Source: Cochliopodium minus
Taxonomy: Eukaryota; Discosea; Himatismenida; Cochliopodiidae
Length of the DNA: 41,597 nt
Assembly (NCBI GenBank): GCA_024220525.1
Contig: JAMYWO010000059.1
Coordinates: 24,058 to 65,654 of the forward strand
Direction of reading: 5' to 3'
The translations under genes were made by a program, and so were the position numbers. Positions 17,338-39,311 of the stretch are shown here, one piece after another (the first letter of the stretch is position 1; each line of letters opens with the position of its first letter). The notes under the pieces are model-generated. The model searched no databases. It saw only the letters and a program-made list of their open reading frames with translations, and was not told where the DNA came from.

Positions 17338-19272
17338 ATGTCAAACAAAACAATAGCGATAGGAATAGATCTAGGAACTACTTACTCTTGTGTAGGAGTA
17401 TGGCAAAATGATAGAATAGAAATCATTGCAAATGATCAAGGAAACAGAACTACCCCATCTTATGTTGCGTTCACAGATCAAGAAAGATTGATTGGAGATT
17501 CTGCAAAAGGACAAGCATCTTTGAATCCACATAACACCGTATTTGATGCAAAGAGATTGATCGGGAGGGAATTTAATGATCAAACTGTCCAAGAAGATAT
17601 GAAACATTGGCCATTCAAAGTGATCAACGATGGAGGAAAACCAAAGATTCAGGTTGAATTCAAAGGAGAAACAAAAACATTCTTGCCTGAAGAGATCTCT
17701 GCGATGGTGTTGACCAAAATGAAGGATGTTGCAGAGACATATCTTGGCCATGAAGTAACTGAAGCAGTGATCACTGTTCCTGCATATTTCAACGATCAAC
17801 AAAGACAAGCAACAAAAGATGCAGGGACCATTGCTGGATTGATCGTGAAAAGAATCATTAGTGAACCCACTGCTGCGGCCATTGCTTATGGTCTTGGAGA
17901 TGAATCGTTGAAAGAGGATGAGAAGAAGGTGTTGATCTTTGATTTGGGTGGAGGTACTTTTGATGTCTCCCTCTTGGCAATTGAAGATGGAATGTTTGAA
18001 GTAAAGGCAACTGCTGGAGATACCCACTTGGGAGGAGAAGATTTTGATAACAGGTTGGTTGATCATTTTGTACAAGAGTTCAAAAGAAAACACAAGGGAG
18101 ATTTGACAAGCAATCCCCGCGCAATCAGAAGATTGAGAACTGCTTGTGAAAGAGCAAAAAGAACTCTTTCTAGTCAAACTCAAGCTTGCATCGAAGTGGA
18201 TGCTCTCTTTGAAGGTATTGATTTCTACACCAGCATCAACAGAGCAAGATTTGAAGAACTTTGTGCAGATCTCTTCCGTTCCACTTTGGCTCCTGTAGAA
18301 AAAGTGTTGAGAGATTCCAACATTGACAAGAAACAAATAGATGAAGTGGTATTGGTGGGAGGATCCACTCGTATTCCCAAAGTTCAAGCTCTCTTGTCCA
18401 ACTTTTTCAATGGAAAGAAACTGAACAACTCTATCAACCCTGATGAGGCAGTTGCTTATGGAGCAGCAGTTCAAGGAGCAGTACTTTCTGGTGTTAAAAA
18501 AGGAGAGTTAGGAAACATGGTCATTTTGGACGTTGCTCCTCTTTCTCTTGGCATAGAAACTTCTGGACAAGTCATGACTGTTTTGATTCCAAGGAACACC
18601 AAGATTCCAGTAGAAAAAGAAGAGACTTTCACCACTTATACTGACAACCAAACTCGTGTTTTGATTCAAGTTTTCGAAGGAGAACGTACTTTGACCAAGG
18701 ACAACAACTTGCTCGGAAAGTTTGAGTTGGGAGACATACCTCCTGCTCGTCGTGGTGAACCAAAGATCAAAGTCAAGTATGCCATTGATGAAAATGGCAT
18801 TTTGAATGTCACTGCTACTGAGGAGTCTACTGGAAAGAAAAACAGTATCACTATTACCAACCCTGGAAGACTTTCAGTAGAGGAAATAAAGAGAATGGTC
18901 AATGATGCTCAAACTCATCAAAAAGATGATAAACTTGTCAAAGAAAAGATCGAAGCTAGAAACAACTTGGATTCTTACACTTACCAAATCAAAAGATCCA
19001 TCAGCGATGAAAAGATCAAAGATAAGATCAACGAAGAAGACAGAAAGACCATCGAAAATGCAGTTCAAGAGACCATTTCTTGGATGGAAAAGAATCAGAC
19101 TGCAGAGATTGATGAGATCGAACATCAAAGAAAGGATCTTGAATCAAAAGTTGGTCCTCTCATGGCTAAACTCTACCAAGGTGGTCAAAGTGGTATTCCA
19201 AGTGATGATACTGGTTTCACTGGTGGCAACTTTGCTCAAAATGATCAACCTGTCATTGAAGATGTTGACTAA
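17338..19272 (+). CDS. HSP70: Cytosolic Hsp70 chaperone, intronless
   Basis: One uninterrupted frame of 644 residues, the usual cytosolic length. The three Hsp70 signatures are present: IDLGTTYS (residues 9-16), the phosphate-loop motif [14 protein letters not shown] (about 200-213) and [14 protein letters not shown] (about 338-351). The nucleotide-binding domain covers roughly 1-385, the linker reads [14 protein letters not shown], and the substrate-binding domain and lid follow. The protein has no signal peptide and no HDEL-type tail, so it acts in the cytosol or nucleus. The C-terminus reads IEDVD, where EEVD is standard for binding TPR co-chaperones such as Hop and CHIP; the change is a conservative Glu to Asp. 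It has no introns while most neighbours have several, as is common for heat-inducible genes. Confidence 0.97.
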
Positions 19273-22957: not shown

Positions 22958-25900
22958 ATGAGTAATAATAAAGCAACAGGGATCTCTGGGAATGTATATT
23001 TTCAATCACCTGAATTATCCAAATCATTCATACTGGAGATGGAGAAGATATTGGAATTATCCTCCAATATCTTGAATAAAGCGGATATATCGATATTGAA
23101 GATGTTGGAGAGGATAATAGAAATCTGTGCAAATTTTAATACAGTTGCAACAACTAATATTCAAATAAATGACAATAATGTTTTAATAAATCATCTCAAA
23201 GTCTATAAACAATCATTGCATGAGATCTTCAAGAAGAACAGTCATGATAATGAAGAGGGAAGGAATATATTGAAGAGCACATTGATAAAAATTTGCCATT
23301 CTATCGAGCAATTGATGGAAGGGAACGATAATATTGTTGTTCAAAGCATCTCCCTTCAAATCAAAAACTGTATAAATCAGCTGAAATTATTTTATGGAGA
23401 GATCACGGTCCCTAAAACCCAATTCATCGAAAATGCTAAACAAATGATTGCATATGCAGACAAATTGATCAATTTTGTTAAAACAAGGGCATATATCTTA
23501 CCTGATAAGAGTCTATCTTTGAAATTAACAAATATCTCTGAAACTTTGGAGTTGAATATCAAAAATCTCATCAAAATCTCAAGCTCTTATTTGCAGAGAT
23601 CTTCCAATGTAACTATGGGAAACAATGAAACTAATGTAAACAAAAATAATATGAAATTTATCCATTTATATATGTTATAATTTTGAATACTCCTCATCTA
23701 TAAACTCTTCATCTACAAAGCAAGATACACTTTTTAACTCATTTCAATTTTTAACACTAATTTGTTATCTGAAAAAATTTTTTTTTAAATTATACCAAAT
23801 CTTACATCTTTCTCAATCAAAGTCGACATAATATAATTAATTTTTAGATCATTTAATCAAAGCCCACATATTCACATCTTTTGAATTATTATAAACAATT
23901 AATTAAATTATATATACAAAAATACCAACCAAATGTTTTCGAAAAAAAACAGGAGAAAGAACAACTCATAAAAACAGTTAGTATGAATCTTAAAGATTTG
24001 ATAAATCTCACGAAAATAANNNNNNNNNNNNNNNNNNNNNNNNNNNNNNNNNNNNNNNNNNNNNNNNNNNNNNNNNNNNNNNNNNNNNNNNNNNNNNNNN
24101 NNNNNNNNNNNNNNNNNNNAAAAAAACAGGAGAAAGAACAACTCATAAAAACAGTTAGTATGAATCTTAAAGATTTGATAAATCTCACGAAAATAAAGTC
24201 AGGACCGAGAATAGAACTTATCTTCTCAGACAGGGTTGTAATAGAAAAACAACCACCAGTTAGACCTCTTCCTCAACCCAAACAACCCCAAGATAAAAAT
24301 GGAATAACTAATTCTCCTTTAAAAAATGGAAACTTTCATTCACTTAGGGAGAGTGGCTCTGAAGTGATAAAAAAATTTAATAACACTTCTTCTGTGAGAG
24401 GATCTTCTTCTCCTAAAGTTGAAAAAGAAAATTTTAGGTAATCATATATTTTAAAATATTTTAATTGTTTATTACAAATAAAATTTTAATGTTATTTCTT
24501 GAGTATAAGAAATTTTATAATAATGATAATAAAATGTTCTTTTCATTTAATTTTAAAATTTAAAAGTTAATTGTAAAATATTACTTTTTAACTTTTTTTT
24601 TTTTAAAACAAAGACTTTTTTTTAAATATTTCTAAATTTTTTTTTCAAAAAATTTCCAAATAAAAGTTGTTTTAATTATCTATTTTTAATAGTGTATCTA
24701 TGGATAACCTATTCAGAAAAAGCGAGGACAATAACGTACTTAACAACACAAACAATACCGTCAACAAAAATCTCAACATACACAACCCGACACAGAATAA
24801 CAACAAGGGAACTCCTGTTCCAGGCAGCAAGGTCAATCTCTTCAACAACCCTTACTCCAAGCCTAACAATCCCAATAACAATGTCAATAAAGTTAATTTA
24901 AATAACACAAGCAATACAAATACAAATTCAAATCTAAATCAAAGTCCAAACACTACAAGTAACACAAGTCCTAATACCAGTAAAAATTTTAAAAATTAAG
25001 ATTTGTTTTCATTGTTTTTAAATTTATTTTTTTCATTTTTTTTTCTTTTTAAAAACTCTTTAATAAAATATGACTTTTAGATCCCATTTTTGTATATCAT
25101 TTTATTTTTAATTTGTATTTATTTTTTAAAAAGTTACTCATAAATAATTTTTTTTTTTGAATTTTTTGTCCTAATAATAATTTTTTTTTGAAGACAACAT
25201 AAATCATACAAGAAAAGTCAGCAGTGACAGTGATAGTCTTGACGGAATTAACACAAGCACCAAAAATGAGAGCTATATTTTCAAGGAAGAGAGTTTGAAG
25301 ATTGCCAATCAGTTCAACGAAGTGGAGGACCAACACAACAAGTCTTATTCCAACTTGTCTCGCCTTTCTACCGAAACCAACATTTCTTCTGGGGACATGG
25401 ATTCCGATGAAAACGAAATATTTCAATTTTTGATGGACATTTCTTCAGGAAGGTAAAATATTTTCATCTTTTTTTTTTGATATTTTTTATTGTTTATTTT
25501 CACTTTATTTTTTCAAATTTTTTTATTATTATTTTTTTTGTTTTCAATTTTTATTTTTATTTTTTAATATTATTTTGTTTTCATTTTTATTTTATTTTAT
25601 TAAATCAAAATTTCTTATTTTAGTGTGAAAGAACCAAAGAAAAAAAACAGAATATCCATCATGGAATACGCAGGCAAACTCTCGAAAAAGACTCACGAAT
25701 TCACAAGCAGCGGGAACAGCAATAGAAACAGCATCAACAACAATAACAGCAACATCAACACCTTCAATACCAGTCTCAGTGGTTCCTCCACCTTGGAAAT
25801 CCCTTCCATCACCCAAAACAGCCTTTTGACCATCCTTTCTCTCATTGACTCCACCATTATTTCTCAGAGCATCACTGGTGAGCTTCTTGTTGTTGAGATC

Positions 25901-27961: not shown

Positions 27962-28440
27962 CTTTATTTTTATTTTAATATTTAAAAATATAGAAAAATA
28001 AAGATTTTTGAATTTCTATTAAAACTTATTGACATCCTATATGGTATATTGAGATTTATTCATATCTTGATCTCTTTGATTGGATAAATAAAAAAAAATT
28101 TGAAATTCTAAATTCAAGGAAATCAGCTATTATGGTAAAATTCTTTGATCACCAACAAATGATAAAGTATTCCATGTTTGGATATTTAAATAAATACCAA
28201 TATTAAATCCATAGATTTTTCATTTAACATTATCTTTAAATTCACCAAAATTTATCACCATTTTCTCAAATAATTACGAGGATTATGAGACCAATCATAC
28301 TACTCACTCCATATAAATTTTTTCAACAATCAAGAATTTCATCCCAATATATCAAAATCTAATAAAATTTATTTCATCAAAAAAAACTAAAATAGGAAGG
28401 AGGTAAAGAATATAGATTAAAAAATAAAGATGGAAAAGAG
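27962..28440. other. Intergenic between divergent genes, no gene seen
   Basis: 479 nt separate the AlaX start (minus) from the RING-Sel1 start (plus). It contains AT-rich spacer with an A/G-rich leader before 28441. I see no ORF or defined motif. Confidence 0.55.
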
Positions 28441-29715
28441 ATGTTCTTGGTGATAGATCCAATCAATGAAAATATGATCTGTTCGTGCCAAAAATTGTTG
28501 ATAAATCCAAAGATATGTCTTGTATGTTCGAAATCATTTTGTGTTGAATGTCACAAAGGAGAAAATAAATGTCCGAGATGTGATGATGAAATAGACGAAA
28601 ATAAAAAATTAGGTATAATTGTGGGAAAACTAAAAATAAATTGTGAAATATGTGGAGAAGAAATGATGATAAGTGAAATCGAAAAACATGCTAAAAACGA
28701 AGAAGAACATGTTTTTGAATGTAAAGGATGCGGAATTAAAAAAACGAAAAAGTTGTTAAAGTTGCATCAACAACAATGTTCTTCTTTTCTTTCCGTGAAT
28801 ACTTTAAGTGAGATCAAATTGTCCAAGTTAGAGGAGAAGATACAGTGTTTGAATCAAGAAATAAATAATTTGAAAAAAGAAAACGAAGAATTGAAAAGGA
28901 TAAAGGAGGAAAAGAAAATAAGGAAAAAGGAAAAGAGAAAAAAGAAATATGCTTGTAAAAAAATCTGATTAATTTTTTTTTTAAAAAATAATTTTTTATT
29001 TTTAGTTAAAGCAATAAAGAGTTTTAATTTGTTCTTCGGAATAGGATTCCCTTTTAATGAAGAAAAAGCAATCAAATTGTGCGTCGAGAGCAGTAAAAAT
29101 GGGAACAAGTTTGCGGAGGGGATGAATCTTTTTTATGGATGGCAAACCTACCAAGACACTCGCAAATCAATCGAAATATTTCTGGAAGTGGTAGAAAATG
29201 ATAAACTTTTCGAAAATGAAGAGACGGTTTATTGTTTGTTTTTTGCGGGGTTTCAATACGAAAATGGGGTTGGGGTTGACAAAAATATCGAAAAAACCAT
29301 CGAAAATTACAAAAAGGGAGTTGAATTGAACCATTCTCCTTCAATTCATCAACTTGCGTATATTTATGAGCATGGTAAAGATGGAATCAAATTAGATATC
29401 AAATCTGCCATACAACTTTATGAGAGATCTTTGAAAATGAATCATTCCATTTCAATGAACAATCTCGCTTTCATTTATCAGCACGGAAAGGGAATCAAAA
29501 AGGATATTCAAAAAGCAATTTTGATTTATCGAAAATCTATAAAGTTAAACAATCCTTTTGCGATGTACAACCTCGCCTTTCTTTATGAGATTGGAAAGGG
29601 TGGTGTTGAAAAAAACCTCAACAAAGCAATCCTACTTTATTTGAGAGCTTATGAGTTGGGACATAAAGAATCAAAAGAAAGATATGATCTGATAATTAAA
29701 ACCAAAAACAAATAA
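28441..29715 (+). CDS. RING / TRAF-type zinc finger / coiled-coil / Sel1-repeat protein
   Basis: Exons 28441-28954 and 29006-29715 give 407 residues. Residues 12-50 hold a RING-like set of Cys/His (CSC, CLVC, FCVECH, CPRC). Residues 66-112 hold a TRAF-type finger (CEICGEEM, H, H, CKGCG, H, C). Residues 118-165 form a Lys/Glu coiled coil. The second exon encodes Sel1-like repeats: GIGFPFNEEKAIKLCVESS, NGVGVDKNIEKTIENYKKGVELN, then three more ending in LYLRAYELGHKES. RING-TRAF modules usually act as E3 ubiquitin ligases, and Sel1 repeats bind partner proteins. The first 98 bases of the gene recur in degraded form just after its stop. Confidence 0.85.
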
Positions 29716-31076: not shown

Positions 31077-34000
31077 TCAATAATCCAAAGAATGTTGAGT
31101 TGCCAAAGTAGGAGCGTCCAAGTTAGAAGAAAGATCCAAGTAATAAGGCTTCTTGTCCAAGATCTCATACTTACTAATACAATCCAAAATGAACTGAAAG
31201 TTGATAGGATCCCGACCAGTCTGCTTATAAAGTTCACTGAAACTTTTTTCGTTGAAAGATGGATCACAAATGAGATAATCATCATCCAACTTTGATAACT
31301 GTTTGATTGACTGAGGTTTCTTAGGGATGTCTTCCAAGACTTTACCGTGTCCAACTTGGATCAAAAGTTCGAGTTCATCCTTGCTAGGAGCTTTAAATTC
31401 TCCGTAAAAATAGAATTTCTTGCCTTGGAAGAGTCTCCTCTGAATGTTGGCGGACCTGATCTTCATACGGCTTTTAGTGGGTGTGCCTGCTTCTCCAAAG
31501 TTGTCTCCCTTCACCTCAAACTTGCTTTCGCTTGACCATTTTTGTTGAGAAAGACAATTTTCAACCCAATCAAAAGAAACAACCCAATTACCAGAAAGAA
31601 TCTTTTGAAAAAAAAAAAAAAGATTAATAAAAAAATAATTTACAAGAAAAAAAATTTTAAAGTAATTTTTTTTTTTTTTTACACTTAATAAGTATTTAAC
31701 TGTCCTCTTTGTTGTTTTGGTTTCTGGATCTACATTGGTTACGAGATGAGTGACTTCGTCAGACCACTGCTTGACCAATCTCCCTCCCAACTTGACACAG
31801 AGAAGTTTGGTCTGTTTGAGTTCTTCACTTTTCAATCCAGAACAAAGAATTATCTTTTCATTCTTGTCTTCATTTGTTTTATTTTCTATTTTGTTATTGT
31901 TATTATTAGAAGTTTTTTGATGAAGATTGTTGTTGTTGTTGTTATTGTTATTTTTATTTCTATTCTCATTTTCTTCAATATCTTGATTGTCTTCTTCATA
32001 AATTTTGTCTACTTTGTTAAAAGACTTTAACAATTCTCGGTTTGTTTCAGGTGGAGTACGATCTCTATTTGGGGGAGTAACATTTCTTTGACTAATCTCT
32101 TTCTGTTTGGGGGGAGTTATCAGTTTTTCTTTGGGAGGAGTTATCAATTTTTCTTTGGGTGGGGTGACAATCTTTTCTTTTGGAGGTGTTTGATCTTTCT
32201 TTGGAGGTGTCACTATTTTTTGACTGATCTCTTTGGGTGGAGCGATGTCCTTTTCTTTTGGAGGAGTTGTTTTGTTCTTTTGAGGAATTTCTTTCTCCTT
32301 TTCTTTCTCCCTTGGACGTTGTGAAACTTTTTGAGGAACTGAAAAATTGTCTTCTTTTTGAGAGTGTTTTTCTTTTTGAGAGGGTTTTTCTTTTTGTGAG
32401 GACTTTTCACTTTCGTTGATAGAAGATGGAATCTCTGCTATTTCATCGTTGTTACCATCATTGTCATAACCAACATCAGGAAAAGAATAATGAGCCTCTA
32501 TTTCTTCGTTTTGGGTAAGATTAGGATCAACCAATAGGGAAGAAGTTCTAAGAGATAAATTGTTCTCTTTGTTTGTCTTTTTGTTTGAAGAAGAAGTTGT
32601 GTTCTGTTGTTCAGATGGAAGAAGATTGTTGTTTTTGAGATCTTTTTTGTTGGGAGTTTTAAGTTTCTTTCTCTCCCGGAGATATTCATTTACATCGATA
32701 TCCCTCAGTTGTTTCTTTTCTTGAACAGTGATGATATCTTCATTTTGAAGCTCCAACTCCTTTCTTTTGCTTCCTTTGTCTTTTGGGTCTTTTTCTTTTT
32801 GAGAAGATTCTCCTTTGTTCTTGTTTTTCTTATTTTTAGACCATTCAAGATACTTGTTTGCCTCATTCAAAATTTCTTTCTCTTTGGCACTTTCCATTAC
32901 TTCGATAGAGTTATTGTGATCATCATTCAAAACTCCCTCATAAGAATCTGGAAGTTGAGTGACAGAAGTCTCAGAACTGGACATAGATTTCTTTATTTCA
33001 TTTGGTTCTTCTTGTTGTATTCCCACAGAAAGAGATTGTGTGATAGGAATCTGCCAATTTGTCAAAGAAGTTTTGGTAGTTGAAGAAGTAGATTTCAAAG
33101 GAATGCTTTCAGGTGTGGCAGTTTGTTTGATTTCCAAAACTTTTTCTCTCACAGAATTTTCTTTTTCATTATTTTTGTTTTTATTATTTACAATATTTTT
33201 TATGATGGGATTGGCTTGTGTTTTCAATTTTTTGTCATCTTTTTCCGAGTTCTCAGATTGAGAATCCAACTTTCTCTTCCTGGTGTTCCCACTGTAGTTC
33301 TCGTCAGACATTTCGCCAAACTCAGGAGAATTGCTCAAATGAGGATCAGGAAGCTCATCAGAAGAATCCACAGGAGTTTCTTCCTTCTCTTTGTTACGTT
33401 TAACACGAGAATTTTTATAGCTAGGAGCTTCGGAAATAGATTTACTGAAAGATCCCCCACTGCTATCCAAAGTTAAAGGTGTTTCTCCGTAGAGAAAACT
33501 GTGCCTTAAAGCATCTAAACTCAAATTTGTTCCTTTCTTGCTTTTTCTAATGACAAAAATGTTCTTCCAATCTTCTGGATCTATCTTTTTGATGAATGTT
33601 CTCGGTTTTCTTTTCCTTATGTTGTCAAACCATGTTTCTATACTTGGTGTTGAATCACCATTATATTCTAGCCATGCATCTCTCATCACTGTGCAAGTTT
33701 CACTAACATATTTTCTTTAAAAGAACAAGATTAAAATGATTTAAATAATTCAAATTGGATTATATGTTGGTTTGGGATATTTTTTTAACATATCTTAATT
33801 TGATGATAATAATTCAATAATTCTTGTATTTATATGCATATCATGATAATTTACAAAAAAGATTTAGTTTCTTACAATCTATCTCCCAAAGATAATAATC
33901 CTTCATTCACCAAATCTAATAAACTCACTCTCTTATTTGATGTATCATTAGATCTGGTTGGAGATCTAGATGGAGATTTTTGATTCCTCTTTGGAGATTT

Positions 34001-34375
34001 CTTGGTGGGTGTTTTTTCTTTATTTCTTATCGATGATCTTTTGGGTGTCAAATTTCTTTGTGGAGAATTTTCCCTTTCTTTATTATTGTTACTGGAAGGA
34101 GATATCAATTCTTCTTTCTTCTTCATCAATTTCTTTTTTGGAGTTTCCCTCATTTTCTGTTTTTTCTCTTTAAAATTCTTTGATTCCAATCTCTCCTGAG
34201 TATTGGGCTTAAATTGAGTATTATCAAAGATTTCCACTCCTGAATTTTGTGTATTGGATTCATTATTTGATTTGTATGTTGGAATATTTTCCATAGCTAC
34301 AGATGATTCTACAACATTTAATGTATCTTTCAATTCTGGATCAATCAATAATGATAATGTGCTACTATATGACAT
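31077..34375 (-). CDS. Tandem BRCT protein (BRCA1/BARD1-like C-terminus), 1018 residues
   Basis: Exons 34375-33876, 33714-31683 and 31601-31077 join in frame. The start is the second ATG of the frame (MSYSSTL), placed in A-rich context. The first 165 residues are Lys/Ser-rich and disordered (TPKKSPKRNQKSPSRSP). The middle 600 residues are charged and disordered, with about ten (T/V)PPK-type repeats around residues 540-640. Two BRCT domains end the protein: the first near 785-870 (GGRLVKQWSDEVTHLV, GNWVVSFDWVENCL) and the second near 895-1000 (LFQGKKFYFYGEF, LIQVGHGKV). The sequence FEVKGDNFGEAGTPTKSR between them matches the linker typical of BRCA1 and BARD1. No RING is found. The likely role is phosphopeptide binding in the DNA-damage response. 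Confidence 0.85.
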
Positions 34376-34672
34376 CTTTTTTATCGAATAATCCAAATTA
34401 TATCCTATATAATTCAAATATTGGTTAAAATATATTTTTTCAACGATTTTATTTAATTCACCTTTTTCGATTTTTTTTTTTTTTTAAATTTTTTTTATAT
34501 TTCTCTGATAAATTTCAAAATTTTAAAAAATTTCCAATAAAAAATATTTTAATTTTATCAAAAAAAAAAAAAAAAAAAAAAGAAGAGAAAATCTTTATAA
34601 ATATCAATCAATTTGAACAAAAATAAAAATAAAGTTCAACAAAAAATTTTTATTTTATTTTATTTAGATAGG
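34376..34672. other. Intergenic, T- and A-run spacer
   Basis: 297 nt between the BRCT gene start and the downstream end of the Tudor-PH gene, both on the minus strand. It contains a run of about 21 A near 34561-34581. No gene is seen. Confidence 0.6.
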
Positions 34673-37600
34673 TTATTTGTTTCTTTTTAATGAAACATTG
34701 TTACGGATACATTTGATCCAGTCGTTCATGTCCTGAGCACTTTGAGCGCAAATGGGAAGAACACGATCAGAAGAAATAATCTCAAAAATAAATTCCTTCT
34801 TGTATTTCTGCATAGAATCTTTACAAATGGTGACATCCTTTATTCTTTGAAGATGGATGGTACCTTTAGGCTTCTCTGTGGTACTTTTGGAATAATAATT
34901 AAGATTATTCTCGTTTAGAAGAAAAATACGAGATTTCCAAGATTTCCTTCCAAAGATAGAAGTACCACCTCCTTGTTTTGAGAGCTTACCAGTTTTGGAA
35001 GAGTGTTGGTTTGGCATATCGTTTTCGATCAAAGTTTTGGTATGTTGAGAATTTTTGATGAGATCTTTCATTTCGTTTTGTAATGTGTTTTTGAAGTTTG
35101 AAGAAGAAGAATTGAGTTGATTAGTATTATTGGACTTTGTTGCAGTAGTATTATTTCCAGAAGTGTTGTTGGTTCCAGAAATACCATTGTTGTTACCAGA
35201 AGTAAGAGGAGAACTATTGTTTTGGAGGGTATTTGTTTGTGGAAGTTTGTTTGTAACTTCAGGATTAGGTTTAGGATCTTCTTCGAGCTCTTCTATCTCC
35301 TCAAGGATTTCCTCAGGTCCATTTAACTTCTCTTCCATTACTTTTTGGATGTGCTCAATGATCTTTTGATTATTTTTGGAATTGTTTTTTTTGGCATCTT
35401 CCTCATAGACCGAAATAGCTTTGTTGTAAAGTTGTTGTTGGGTTTCAGAATCAGTTTGAACTTCCGCTTTTTTCATGTAAGCCTCTCCCAACTTTAACAT
35501 CACAAGATGATCATTAGGTTTGATCTGCAAAAAGTCTTCGAATTTTTTAATAGCTTTGTCCAAAAGAATCTGGTTCGTTAAATCGTTCTTTGTTTCGAAA
35601 TATACAATGTATGATTCTCCCCAATGAAACAAAGTCTCCAACTCCAAAAGAGTTGCTTCTTTGAAATCTCCTTCTACTTTGTATTCACTAATCCCGATGC
35701 TTGGAAACTTTATATCAGGAACACGAACTTCACCACTCTCATCTGACGAATCCAAATCATCGTCATCGCTAGTTCTTTGTTTACTTGTGAAAGTGGTATA
35801 TCTCTTTCTCATTACAGTACCTAAAAATAAAAATTAAACATTTCAAAAAATGAAATTAAAAAATTTTTTTTTTTATTACCAGATCTTTCTTTTTCTCCTA
35901 CATTGTTTTTTGGAACAGCAGACAATTTTTGTCCTACTTTCTCGAAAGATTGAAAAGCTTTCTTGATAATATCGTCCATAGAATCCTTGCTCTTCTTGCA
36001 GATCTCCAACTCTACAATTCCTCCAATCTTGAACAATGAAGCAAAAGCAAGTTTAAACTTTGGACTTTCTGGGCAAATCTTCTCTGCTTTTTCGATGAAA
36101 GACATTGCTCTTGAAATGTACTCTGATTTCTCCTCCAATTTAGCTTCTTCTCCTTCTGTCATTGCTTGATAAGCTACCGTGATATAGGAAGTGACAAGAA
36201 ATTCGAGTGCTTCTTTGTTTTTAGGATCGATCTTGAGCAACTCACCCAAAATCTTCTCGGACTCTTCCACTTTCTTCTTTTGTTCTTTGAAGTCTCCCTT
36301 CGTCTCCATAAGTTTCTTTGCTTTGAAAATGACTGCTTCCACTTTTTGTGGGATGCTCATCTTTGGGACAAAATTTTCGTCCAATCTAAAAAAAATGATT
36401 TAAAAAGTTTAAAACTAAAAATGAAAAAAATTGTACAAGCTCATTGCATCACTCAATTCCTTTAATAATTCATTAAGTTCATTTTCGTTTAACTCTGGTC
36501 TCAATCTTCTCAAACATTGCTCCAATGCCTCCCCTGCTTTGATGTTGTATAACTTTTGGAGGATTGAAAAAGAGATTTCTTTCATTGCTCCTGTTTCGTT
36601 CAATAAATTATCAAACAAAGTGTTGGACAACAATCTCTCGTATTTTGTCATCACTTTGTTTACTTTCACTTTTTAAAAGAAAAAAATTAGATTGGATTGA
36701 TTTAAAACTTTAACAAACTCTTACAATTATGTACAACTGAAAGTAAGGAATAAGAAGCATTCAATTGAATTTGAGTTTTTTGGTGGTGCAATAAGTAGAT
36801 AACTGCCTCTATAACTCCCGAATCAGCAAAATTAGAAATATTCTTTGTATCTATTTTTTATTGAAAGAGAAAAAATTAAATTTAAAATAAAAATGAAATT
36901 AAGGAATTACTTTGAAAAAAAGATAAGAGAGCTCTTGAAGCTGAAAGTGCAATTTCATAGCTTTCATTAACACATAAATGAGAAATTAATCTGATAGAGT
37001 TTTCGTCTTCAGAAATGACTCTGGTAGATTCGGCAATTTGTTCATTTTCTTTTGCATCTATTAAAAAAAAAGAATTAATAAAAAAAAGAAAAAAAAGAGG
37101 CAAGAAAAAGATTACTTCCCACAAGTAAACATTCATAACAACTTGATGCAAGAAGTTGACTTAAATTATAGCTTGACGAAGCTGCATTTGACAATTCCTT
37201 TATATCTAATTATTTTTTAAAAAAATGATTAAAATAAATATGAAACAAGAATAAAATTTTTATTATGCAAACCTATATCGGAAATGTTTACATTGGCAGT
37301 GTTCTGAACGACTCTTTCAAATTCTTCTTCACTGATTTCAACGTGTATCCCTTGTACGATACCACAAAGTCCATCGTTACTGTACATAATCTCAGAAAGT
37401 TCCCTGTTTATTCTGTCATCAAGATCTGATTTATTGATTTTGACAACAGTGTTGTTTTTTCTACTTTTTTCGTTTATTTCTCTAACATAAGAAGCTCTAA
37501 TATCTTTTTTTAAGGTATCAACAGCATTTAAAAGAGATGAAATGCGAAAAACTTCTGACACTTTCAAAATCCATAAAGCTATTGTGTTTGCTTCATTTAC

Positions 37601-39311
37601 TTTTCCTAATTTGTTAAGGTTTCCATACATCCACAACAAGAGTTCTGCAGGAGGTACGGTTTCATCGTCAGAATCCACCAAAACATCCTCAATCCCTGAA
37701 ACCTTTTAAAGAATAAAAAAAAAAATGAAAGTTTAAATTTAAAAAAAAATTAATTTAAAAATTATTTTAAACGAATAAAAAAAAAAAAAAAGTTTAAATT
37801 TAAAAAAAATAAAAAAAAATTAAGAAAAATTATTTTACCAAAGATCTTAATGCCTCAAAACAGTGATAACGAAAAATGGGATGCAAAGATGTCACCTCTA
37901 CTCCCTTGTTGTTGGAATCTCCCCAATTCAAAACTTTGTTCCAATGATACTCTAGCCTACTATTTAATGTCTCTTGACTTTTAAGTCTCAGATAAAGCTC
38001 ACTGTATCCGTTATCGTAGAGACCAAGGAAGTGAGTAGAATTAAGAGTGGGTGCTTCACATTTGGAGTAGATGATCAACTTTAGATTTTCTATCTTAGGA
38101 GAGAATTTGAAAGTATCATTGTATTTGAGAAAAGACTTTTGGAACAACTCTTGAGATTGGGAATTGTAATTGTTTTCTTTTAAAAAAACTGCATTTCTTA
38201 ACAAACAATGGGAATATTTGAGTAGCACTACAGCATTGTTCTTTTCCAAGTTCTCAGCAATGTCGAAAAACTTGAATGATTCATCAAACAGGTTGTTGGC
38301 GTTGTTTACAGTATTTAATGGGATCACAGCAGTCTCAGCCAACAAATTTGCAAGAGAGGAATAGCCCAAAGGGGAAGGTTTACTCTTCAAAGTTACTTCT
38401 ACTTTCTGTCTTGCATTTTTCAAAAAATCATTTGTTTTCTCGATCAATTCCATCAACTCCGGATCATTGAATATCTCCGATTTATGAACGGTTTTCACCG
38501 GTGTTGTATTTTTGGTTGGCTGTTTCACAGGCATAGATGGTGTCGGTACTTTTGTTTTATTATTTTCTTGTTTGGATGGCGTAGTGCTAGTTTTGTTTTG
38601 GGTATCATTGGTTTCCAATTCCATGAATTTGCTATTTAATTTACCTATGCGCTTGGGCTCTTGAGATGGTGGAGATTGTTTGACTGGATTTTGATTGGAT
38701 TGATCCATTTGTTTGAAATTATTGATCAGATTTGTTTTGGATGTATTCCCCTCGGGTGTTGCCTTTGGCTTTACATTCTCTTTTGGTTTTGTCTCGAATT
38801 TTTGTATATTTACCTTTGGTTTGGGTGTGGGTGTTGGTTTTTCGATAATTTGAGGCTTTACTTCTATTCTTTGAATATCTTTCTCTTCTGTCAATTGTTC
38901 ATTTCCATATTCAGTAAATACCAAATTATAACAATTATTTTCCTCCAATGACAACAATTTCGCATTATAAAAGAGATTATCTTCATACCATTTGGCTTCT
39001 ACCAAATCTCCAACTATATATTTATATACGCTTTTATTTTCTTCATTATTATTTCTCGTGCTCCCATTACTCGAAGTATTATTATCTTTTGTTGGGGTAT
39101 TTATATTATTATTACTCGTTTTCAACCATGATAAATTTGAATCTGATTTTTTTTCAGTATTCCATAATATAGATGATTTTCTCACTTGGGTTGGTGTTTC
39201 TTTTTTTGGAGGATCATCAAGAGATGGAACACTACTTTCCAATTCATCAAAATATTTTGAAAATTCCATTTCAAATTCATTGATTTCATCATTTATATCG
39301 TCATTATCCAT
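34673..39311 (-). CDS. Tudor - ARM - TPR - PH domain protein, 1383 residues
   Basis: Eight exons (39311-37839, 37702-37273, 37205-37116, 37057-36911, 36850-36725, 36668-36437, 36385-35880, 35820-34673) keep frame at every junction. Residues 96-150 form an SMN-like Tudor domain (VGDLVEAKWYEDNLFYNAKL, EYGNEQL), which reads methylated Arg or Lys. About 280-640 is helical, TPR-like repeat. About 660-830 is armadillo-like (FADSGVIEAVIYLLHHQKTQ). About 845-1000 and 1055-1145 are TPR-like (KAIKKFEDFLQIKPNDH). A PH domain closes the protein at about 1280-1378 (GKLSKQGG, SWKSRIFLL, FIFEIISS, DMNDWIKCI), with the conserved Trp of its last helix. Between the TPR and PH parts is an Asn/Thr-rich linker. 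The start shares a 242-nt spacer with Rab11. I know no named protein with this layout. Confidence 0.82.

Follow-up and report, generated by a model that had tools for sequence, protein, structure and literature searches.

A Cochliopodium minus gene predicted to join an SMN-type Tudor domain, helical repeats and a PH domain, one of four multidomain Tudor proteins found in its genome

Methyl-arginine readers are known mainly from work on splicing, piRNA, and transcription, and the question raised by the locus described here is what role could be played by a protein that carries a Tudor domain at its N-terminus and a PH domain at its C-terminus. The gene lies on the minus strand, at 34673..39311, of a 41,597-nucleotide stretch of the Cochliopodium minus genome (GCA_024220525.1, contig JAMYWO010000059.1, positions 24,058 to 65,654), referred to here as the window, whose own numbering is used throughout. 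The answer that we favor, with a probability of roughly 45%, is that the encoded protein is an adaptor carrying arginine-methylated clients to a phosphoinositide-rich membrane. In this scheme, the PH domain at the C-terminus would dock the protein on a 3-phosphoinositide-rich membrane, and the Tudor domain at the N-terminus would catch proteins or ribonucleoproteins (RNPs) bearing symmetric dimethylarginine (sDMA) deposited by PRMT5; the intervening armadillo-like and TPR blocks would hold further clients or form an arm spanning the two ends. Both ligands are those that we infer from the two domains, as are a cytoplasmic membrane location and the simultaneous use of both ends; a cytoplasmic role is plausible because other Tudor domains of this genome are partnered with myosin and SH3 modules. 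The features on which the argument draws are as follows.

34673..39311, minus strand: whole gene, eight exons, 1383 residues (spliced model, codon and intron-stop test)
39311-37839, 37702-37273, 37205-37116, 37057-36911, minus strand: exons 1-4
36850-36725, 36668-36437, 36385-35880, 35820-34673, minus strand: exons 5-8
38862..39032, minus strand: SMN-type Tudor domain, residues 94-150, with cage residues W108, Y115, F132, Y135, and N137
37839..38468, minus strand: region matching no family, residues 282-491, in exon 1 (Pfam and PDB scan of residues 282-627)
37703..37838, minus strand: intron 1, 136 bp, the longest of seven, GT-AG, with five in-frame stops if retained
37295..37702, minus strand: region matching no family, residues 492-627, in exon 2 (same scan)
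36490..37007, minus strand: likely armadillo-like repeats, residues ~682-815, in exons 4-6 (PDB sequence matches)
36037..36288, minus strand: first TPR block, residues ~866-949 (TPR_14 best over 914-949, weaker TPR models from 866)
35363..35647, minus strand: second TPR block, residues 1060-1154 (TOM20_plant 41.6 bits against a cut-off of 20.6, in the piece 841-1168)
34697..34996, minus strand: PH domain, residues 1277-1376 (Pfam E 4.6e-17; best PDB matches Myosin X, 8.6e-12, and TAPP1, 7e-10)

In a Pfam scan of the whole protein, which listed ten families, LBR_tudor (E 0.013) and TUDOR (E 0.05) both remained below their cut-offs at the N-terminal domain, and in the isolated piece LBR_tudor narrowly passed (22.5 bits against 22). 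A profile in which the domain was aligned with six other Tudor domains of the same genome gave a sharper result. Among the best 60 of 107 PDB chains, it ranked SPF30 (3.9e-10), TDRD3 (2.3e-9), and SMN (2.5e-8) first, with methyl-lysine readers, for example KDM4A (2.6e-5), lower. The five cage letters, W108, Y115, F132, Y135, and N137, match the SPF30 row letter for letter; the positions other than the asparagine are those that we take to form the cage. The cage asparagine is named as N132 in SMN and N113 in SPF30 (PMC3281842). The assignment as an SMN-type Tudor domain, with SPF30 as the nearest solved relative, thus stands, as the original prediction had proposed for the N-terminus; it is borderline for the domain alone and clear in the profile, and it leans on kinship because the profile includes six further domains. 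Two of these relatives, encoded on contigs designated here C20 and C332, are 69% and 40% identical to the window Tudor domain, respectively. When the C20 and window domains were compared by codon, identity was 68% over 53 codons and the third base was kept in only 17 of 36 conserved codons, which suggests that selection acts on the protein sequence of the Tudor domain.

At the opposite end, the PH domain, as a sequence assignment, is certain: it scored 62.9 bits against a Pfam cut-off of 25.1 in the whole-protein scan, in agreement with what had been claimed for the C-terminus. The nearest PDB sequences are the PH domains of Myosin X, TAPP1, pleckstrin, and DAPP1. The domain carries the basic pattern K1283-x13-K1297-x-R1299-x10-Y1310, and a K-xn-K/R-x-R-xn-Y pattern is typical of PH domains binding phosphatidylinositol trisphosphate (PIP3); the search string is loose and found one further match in the protein outside the PH domain.

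Between the two ends, the original description placed armadillo and TPR repeats. The TPR part is supported by scores over the Pfam cut-offs, with TOM20_plant, a TPR family, reaching 29.3 bits against 20.6 and TPR_14 reaching 23.8 against 23.5 in the whole protein, and TPR_14 rising to 31.0 bits (cut-off 23.5) when pieces were scanned. The armadillo part is likely, as judged from PDB matches to designed ARM proteins (3e-9 when added up across repeats, each single stretch having E of at least 0.27), RAP1GDS1 (0.005), and Vac8 (0.027), the Pfam Arm model remaining below its cut-off. The original prediction did not note that a quarter of the protein, residues 282-627, matches no family. Scanned as one piece, this quarter had nothing in Pfam up to E 10, and the PDB matches were limited to two (E 0.58 and 0.76).

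We searched the genome (44.65 Mb, 598 contigs, the window lying on contig C59) with the whole protein, Pfam TUDOR and SMN_Tudor, and four single Tudor sequences, and found at least five SMN-type Tudor loci, on C23, C135, C332, C20, and C59, the last being the window gene. This number is a lower bound because Tudor domains split by introns may escape such a search; a sixth candidate, on C249 (E 0.05), was judged by eye to be a chance match. The locus at C23:89469 probably resembles an ordinary SPF30, a name that we give it by eye from features presumed to be diagnostic. The other four are multidomain, and three of these four include a PH, myosin, or SH3 module, so that the window protein, first presented as an isolated oddity, instead has three multidomain Tudor companions among the loci detected in this genome.

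The most elaborate of them, at C135:50607-58795 (L031), comprises a myosin, IQ motifs, four Tudor domains, a proline-rich stretch, and a MyTH4-FERM-SH3-MyTH4 tail. The end of the myosin head, the IQ motifs, and three Tudor domains share a single frame of 743 residues without interruption, and the long frame after it contains most of the fourth Tudor domain, followed by MyTH4, FERM, SH3, and a second MyTH4; the first part of the fourth Tudor domain lies, by eye, across a short intron. The chains nearest to the tail are 5ejy and 5ejq, both annotated as 'Myosin-I heavy chain', which we take to be Dictyostelium MyoI/Myo7, a filopodial myosin. At C332, one SH3 piece scored just over its cut-off, while another SH3 piece and a MYND finger scored just under theirs, and the Tudor domain scored over its own; the frames were joined as one gene by eye, and an additional SH3 domain and ankyrin repeats were recognized by eye only. 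At C20, a proline-rich stretch is followed by the Tudor domain and then by Sel1 repeats, also joined across introns by eye. In the alignment, as read by eye, the cage is complete in the window protein and in C20, and tyrosine takes the place of its tryptophan in the C332 domain and in domains three and four of C135; the second C135 domain has no asparagine, and the first is mostly cage-less (R, H, F, D, T).

A further myosin, at C104:41474-45796 (L034), has a coiled-coil-like stretch and, in the next frame, a PH domain 41% identical to that of the window protein, the whole being regarded as one gene by eye. A TPR-PH cassette common to this myosin and the window gene was considered and dropped, as only the PH domains are similar: the matches of the stretch upstream of the C104 PH domain were unconvincing, reaching at best E 0.024, over 10 residues, for the second TPR block and E 0.071 for part of the region matching no family.

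The partners that an adaptor of this kind would need also appear to be encoded. PRMT5 is present in the genome. Among 16 LSM-family loci fetched, a crude count found RG-rich frames at four, and at two of these (L047, of PPGMMGRG type, and L057, of RGG type) the frames lie downstream of the LSM match on the same strand and resemble Sm tails, which are typical sDMA substrates; those at L046 and L058 were judged by eye to be unrelated. On the lipid side, PI3K_rbd matches occur at three loci, and two near-identical PH-kinase genes (C145:33044 and C155:64281; L001 and L002) resemble PKB/Akt by eye. Judged by sequence, this genome thus has the writer, likely substrates, a lipid pathway, and the residues needed at each end. 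The proposed tethering of methylated RNP or protein cargo to membranes therefore fits the complete cage and the K, R, and Y residues of the PH domain, with the qualification that RNP cargo would be only one kind of sDMA protein.

Several results weigh against the adaptor. Taken by itself, the Tudor domain is matched best in Pfam by LBR_tudor, of the lamin-B receptor type, whereas SMN_Tudor reached only 18.7 bits, under its cut-off of 22.7, and TUDOR was also under its own; in the genome search with SMN_Tudor, the window locus was not listed, C135 being the only one that was. SPF30, the nearest solved relative, is reported to be the weakest of three methyl-arginine binders (PMC3281842). In the middle of the protein, Pfam Arm scored 16.7 bits, under its curated cut-off of 20.6, and was outranked by the unrelated Ribosomal_S25, likewise under its own cut-off. 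PH domains are abundant in this genome, with at least 145 exon-level matches when 150 of the 238 candidates were scored, and because they are so common, a PH fusion is no great surprise here, less so than it would be in most genomes. Many PH domains do not bind phosphoinositides.

The likeliest alternative is that the Tudor domain reads a target other than sDMA, which could be methyl-lysine or, as with an SH3 barrel, a peptide that bears no modification, within a general cytoskeletal or signaling scaffold at membranes that has no link to RNPs. The rank of LBR_tudor among the Pfam models is consistent with this, as are the company kept by the other Tudor domains of the genome, which stand beside myosin, MyTH4-FERM, SH3, and Sel1 modules, and the degenerate cages of the first two C135 domains. 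The profile search, however, places SPF30, TDRD3, and SMN above KDM4A, and the window protein retains the whole cage with its asparagine, so we regard this alternative as somewhat unlikely.

A broader proposal is that, in this lineage, the SMN-type Tudor domains as a group have exchanged their role in RNP assembly for one at the cortex of actin and membrane, where PRMT5 marks would serve as a cortical localization code. The four-Tudor filopodial-type myosin and the SH3/MYND, Sel1, and PH scaffolds would then all read symmetric arginine methylation. We consider this doubtful.

At the C-terminal end, the PH domain might bind a protein instead of a lipid, which would make the window protein a soluble hub built on its helical repeats. 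The abundance of PH domains in this genome, and the many PH domains elsewhere that bind no lipid, are in keeping with such a hub; the basic K-xn-K-x-R...Y pattern is not, and the nearest relatives of the domain by sequence are phosphoinositide-binding PH domains, which leaves the hub quite unlikely. The adaptor that links methylated clients to a membrane remains our preferred interpretation.

The evidence that 39311-34673 on the minus strand is one coding unit is good; a single transcript is predicted. The original claim of eight exons in one in-phase frame of 1383 residues was reproduced when the gene was rebuilt from the DNA: the spliced sequence of 4152 nt encodes 1383 residues and a single terminal stop, and the seven introns, of 51-136 bp each, all have GT-AG borders. 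When splice sites were varied at three junctions, only two of 27 combinations kept the frame open, the difference between them being two residues at a single donor. With the HSP70 gene of the window and the other exons as training set, a codon model ranked the assigned frame first among the three sense frames in all eight exons and first among all six frames in seven; the exception is exon 3 (30 residues), in which the in-frame codon score is negative and one antisense frame scores higher. Each of the seven introns would introduce at least one in-frame stop if retained, and GC content is 7-20% in introns versus 30-38% in exons. It is very unlikely that the model merges two neighboring genes, one consisting of exon 1 with the Tudor domain and the other of exons 2-8: the exon 1/2 junction does lie in phase 0 at the longest intron (136 bp), and exon 1 on its own is an open frame of 493 residues that, unspliced, would run V-K-stop at 37838-37830, but 136 bp would leave scant space for two gene ends, GT-AG borders are present at the junction, the first in-frame ATG of exon 2 comes only about 25 codons in, a longer intron is seemingly present in locus L014 (by eye), and intron 1 contains no AATAAA, a weak sign because introns 2, 4, and 7 each hold one.

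The window as a whole has a GC content of 21-32% (4-kb steps) and short GT-AG introns, and it contains no Rfam match at the gathering threshold and no tRNA. Next to the gene on the minus strand lies a short basic frame (33872-34483) with a RAMA-like match below the cut-off, which may belong to the neighboring minus-strand frame at 31077-33716, where two BRCT stretches are found near the end. Farther away, a cysteine-rich finger followed by Sel1-like repeats occupies adjoining frames at 28396-29715 (by eye), the HSP70 gene is a single open frame at 17338-19272 (by eye), and a run of N at ~23860-24440 is flanked on both sides by the same coding stretch, perhaps owing to an assembly duplication at the gap. 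Elsewhere in the genome, a single Fe-hydrogenase-like gene was found; it presumably resembles the universal Nar1/IOP1 and is not a pointer to an anaerobe. Anaeramoeba, considered as the source in view of the A+T richness, was dropped on this basis, and the tail of the C135 myosin makes an amoebozoan likelier.

If only the architecture is new, the gene would simply add another domain-shuffled scaffold to a genome rich in PH domains; the four multidomain Tudor loci, out of five detected, would, on the other hand, make it possible to test directly whether the positioning of proteins at membranes and on actin also depends on arginine methylation. That the original prediction could name no described family with this domain order agrees with the accessible part of the openly licensed literature searched, in which neither a protein combining Tudor, ARM, TPR, and PH nor a Tudor-bearing myosin has a recognizable description. 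By word count, Tudor is absent from the accessible parts of myosin surveys and of a Dictyostelium myosin paper, and pleckstrin, PH domain, and myosin each have zero occurrences in the accessible part of a survey of Tudor proteins in Holozoa (PMC12147562). The architecture is thus new to the searches made, and its component domains are known.

Among the closest known systems, SMN and SMNDC1/SPF30 have the Tudor sequence family in common with the window protein, including the W-Y-F-Y-N cage of SPF30, but no other part of them is matched among the ten Pfam families listed or the PDB chains, which cover the Tudor domain only. An SMN/SMNDC1 orthologue was therefore rejected, the rest of such a protein being unmatched in the window gene and the probable SPF30 being encoded separately at C23:89469. 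Myosin X, TAPP1, and pleckstrin, the best PDB relatives at the other end, are similar over the PH domain only. UNC-45 also combines TPR and armadillo-type repeats; its TPR comes first, and no UCS family of the UNC-45 type is among the ten listed for the window protein. TDRKH has KH domains and a membrane anchor, and no KH family is among the same ten; its likeness to the window protein is functional, that of a Tudor protein at a membrane. TDRKH/PAPI, itself a Tudor protein, encounters PIWI proteins carrying sDMA on the outer membrane of mitochondria (PMC9775270). Phytophthora sojae and Aurantiochytrium, in turn, have Arl13 GTPases that gained Tudor domains, and in the accessible part of the ARF GTPase paper reporting this, Tudor and PH sit on separate proteins (PMC8358228). 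Because PAPI/TDRKH and Tudor-Arl13 GTPases have been reported, a Tudor protein at a membrane is not new in principle. The C135 myosin is likewise an SMN-type Tudor protein fused to actin and membrane modules; unlike the window protein, it is a motor, and none of the three frames scanned matched PH, ARM, or TPR. The stronger lead is the group of four multidomain Tudor proteins and, above all, this four-Tudor myosin.

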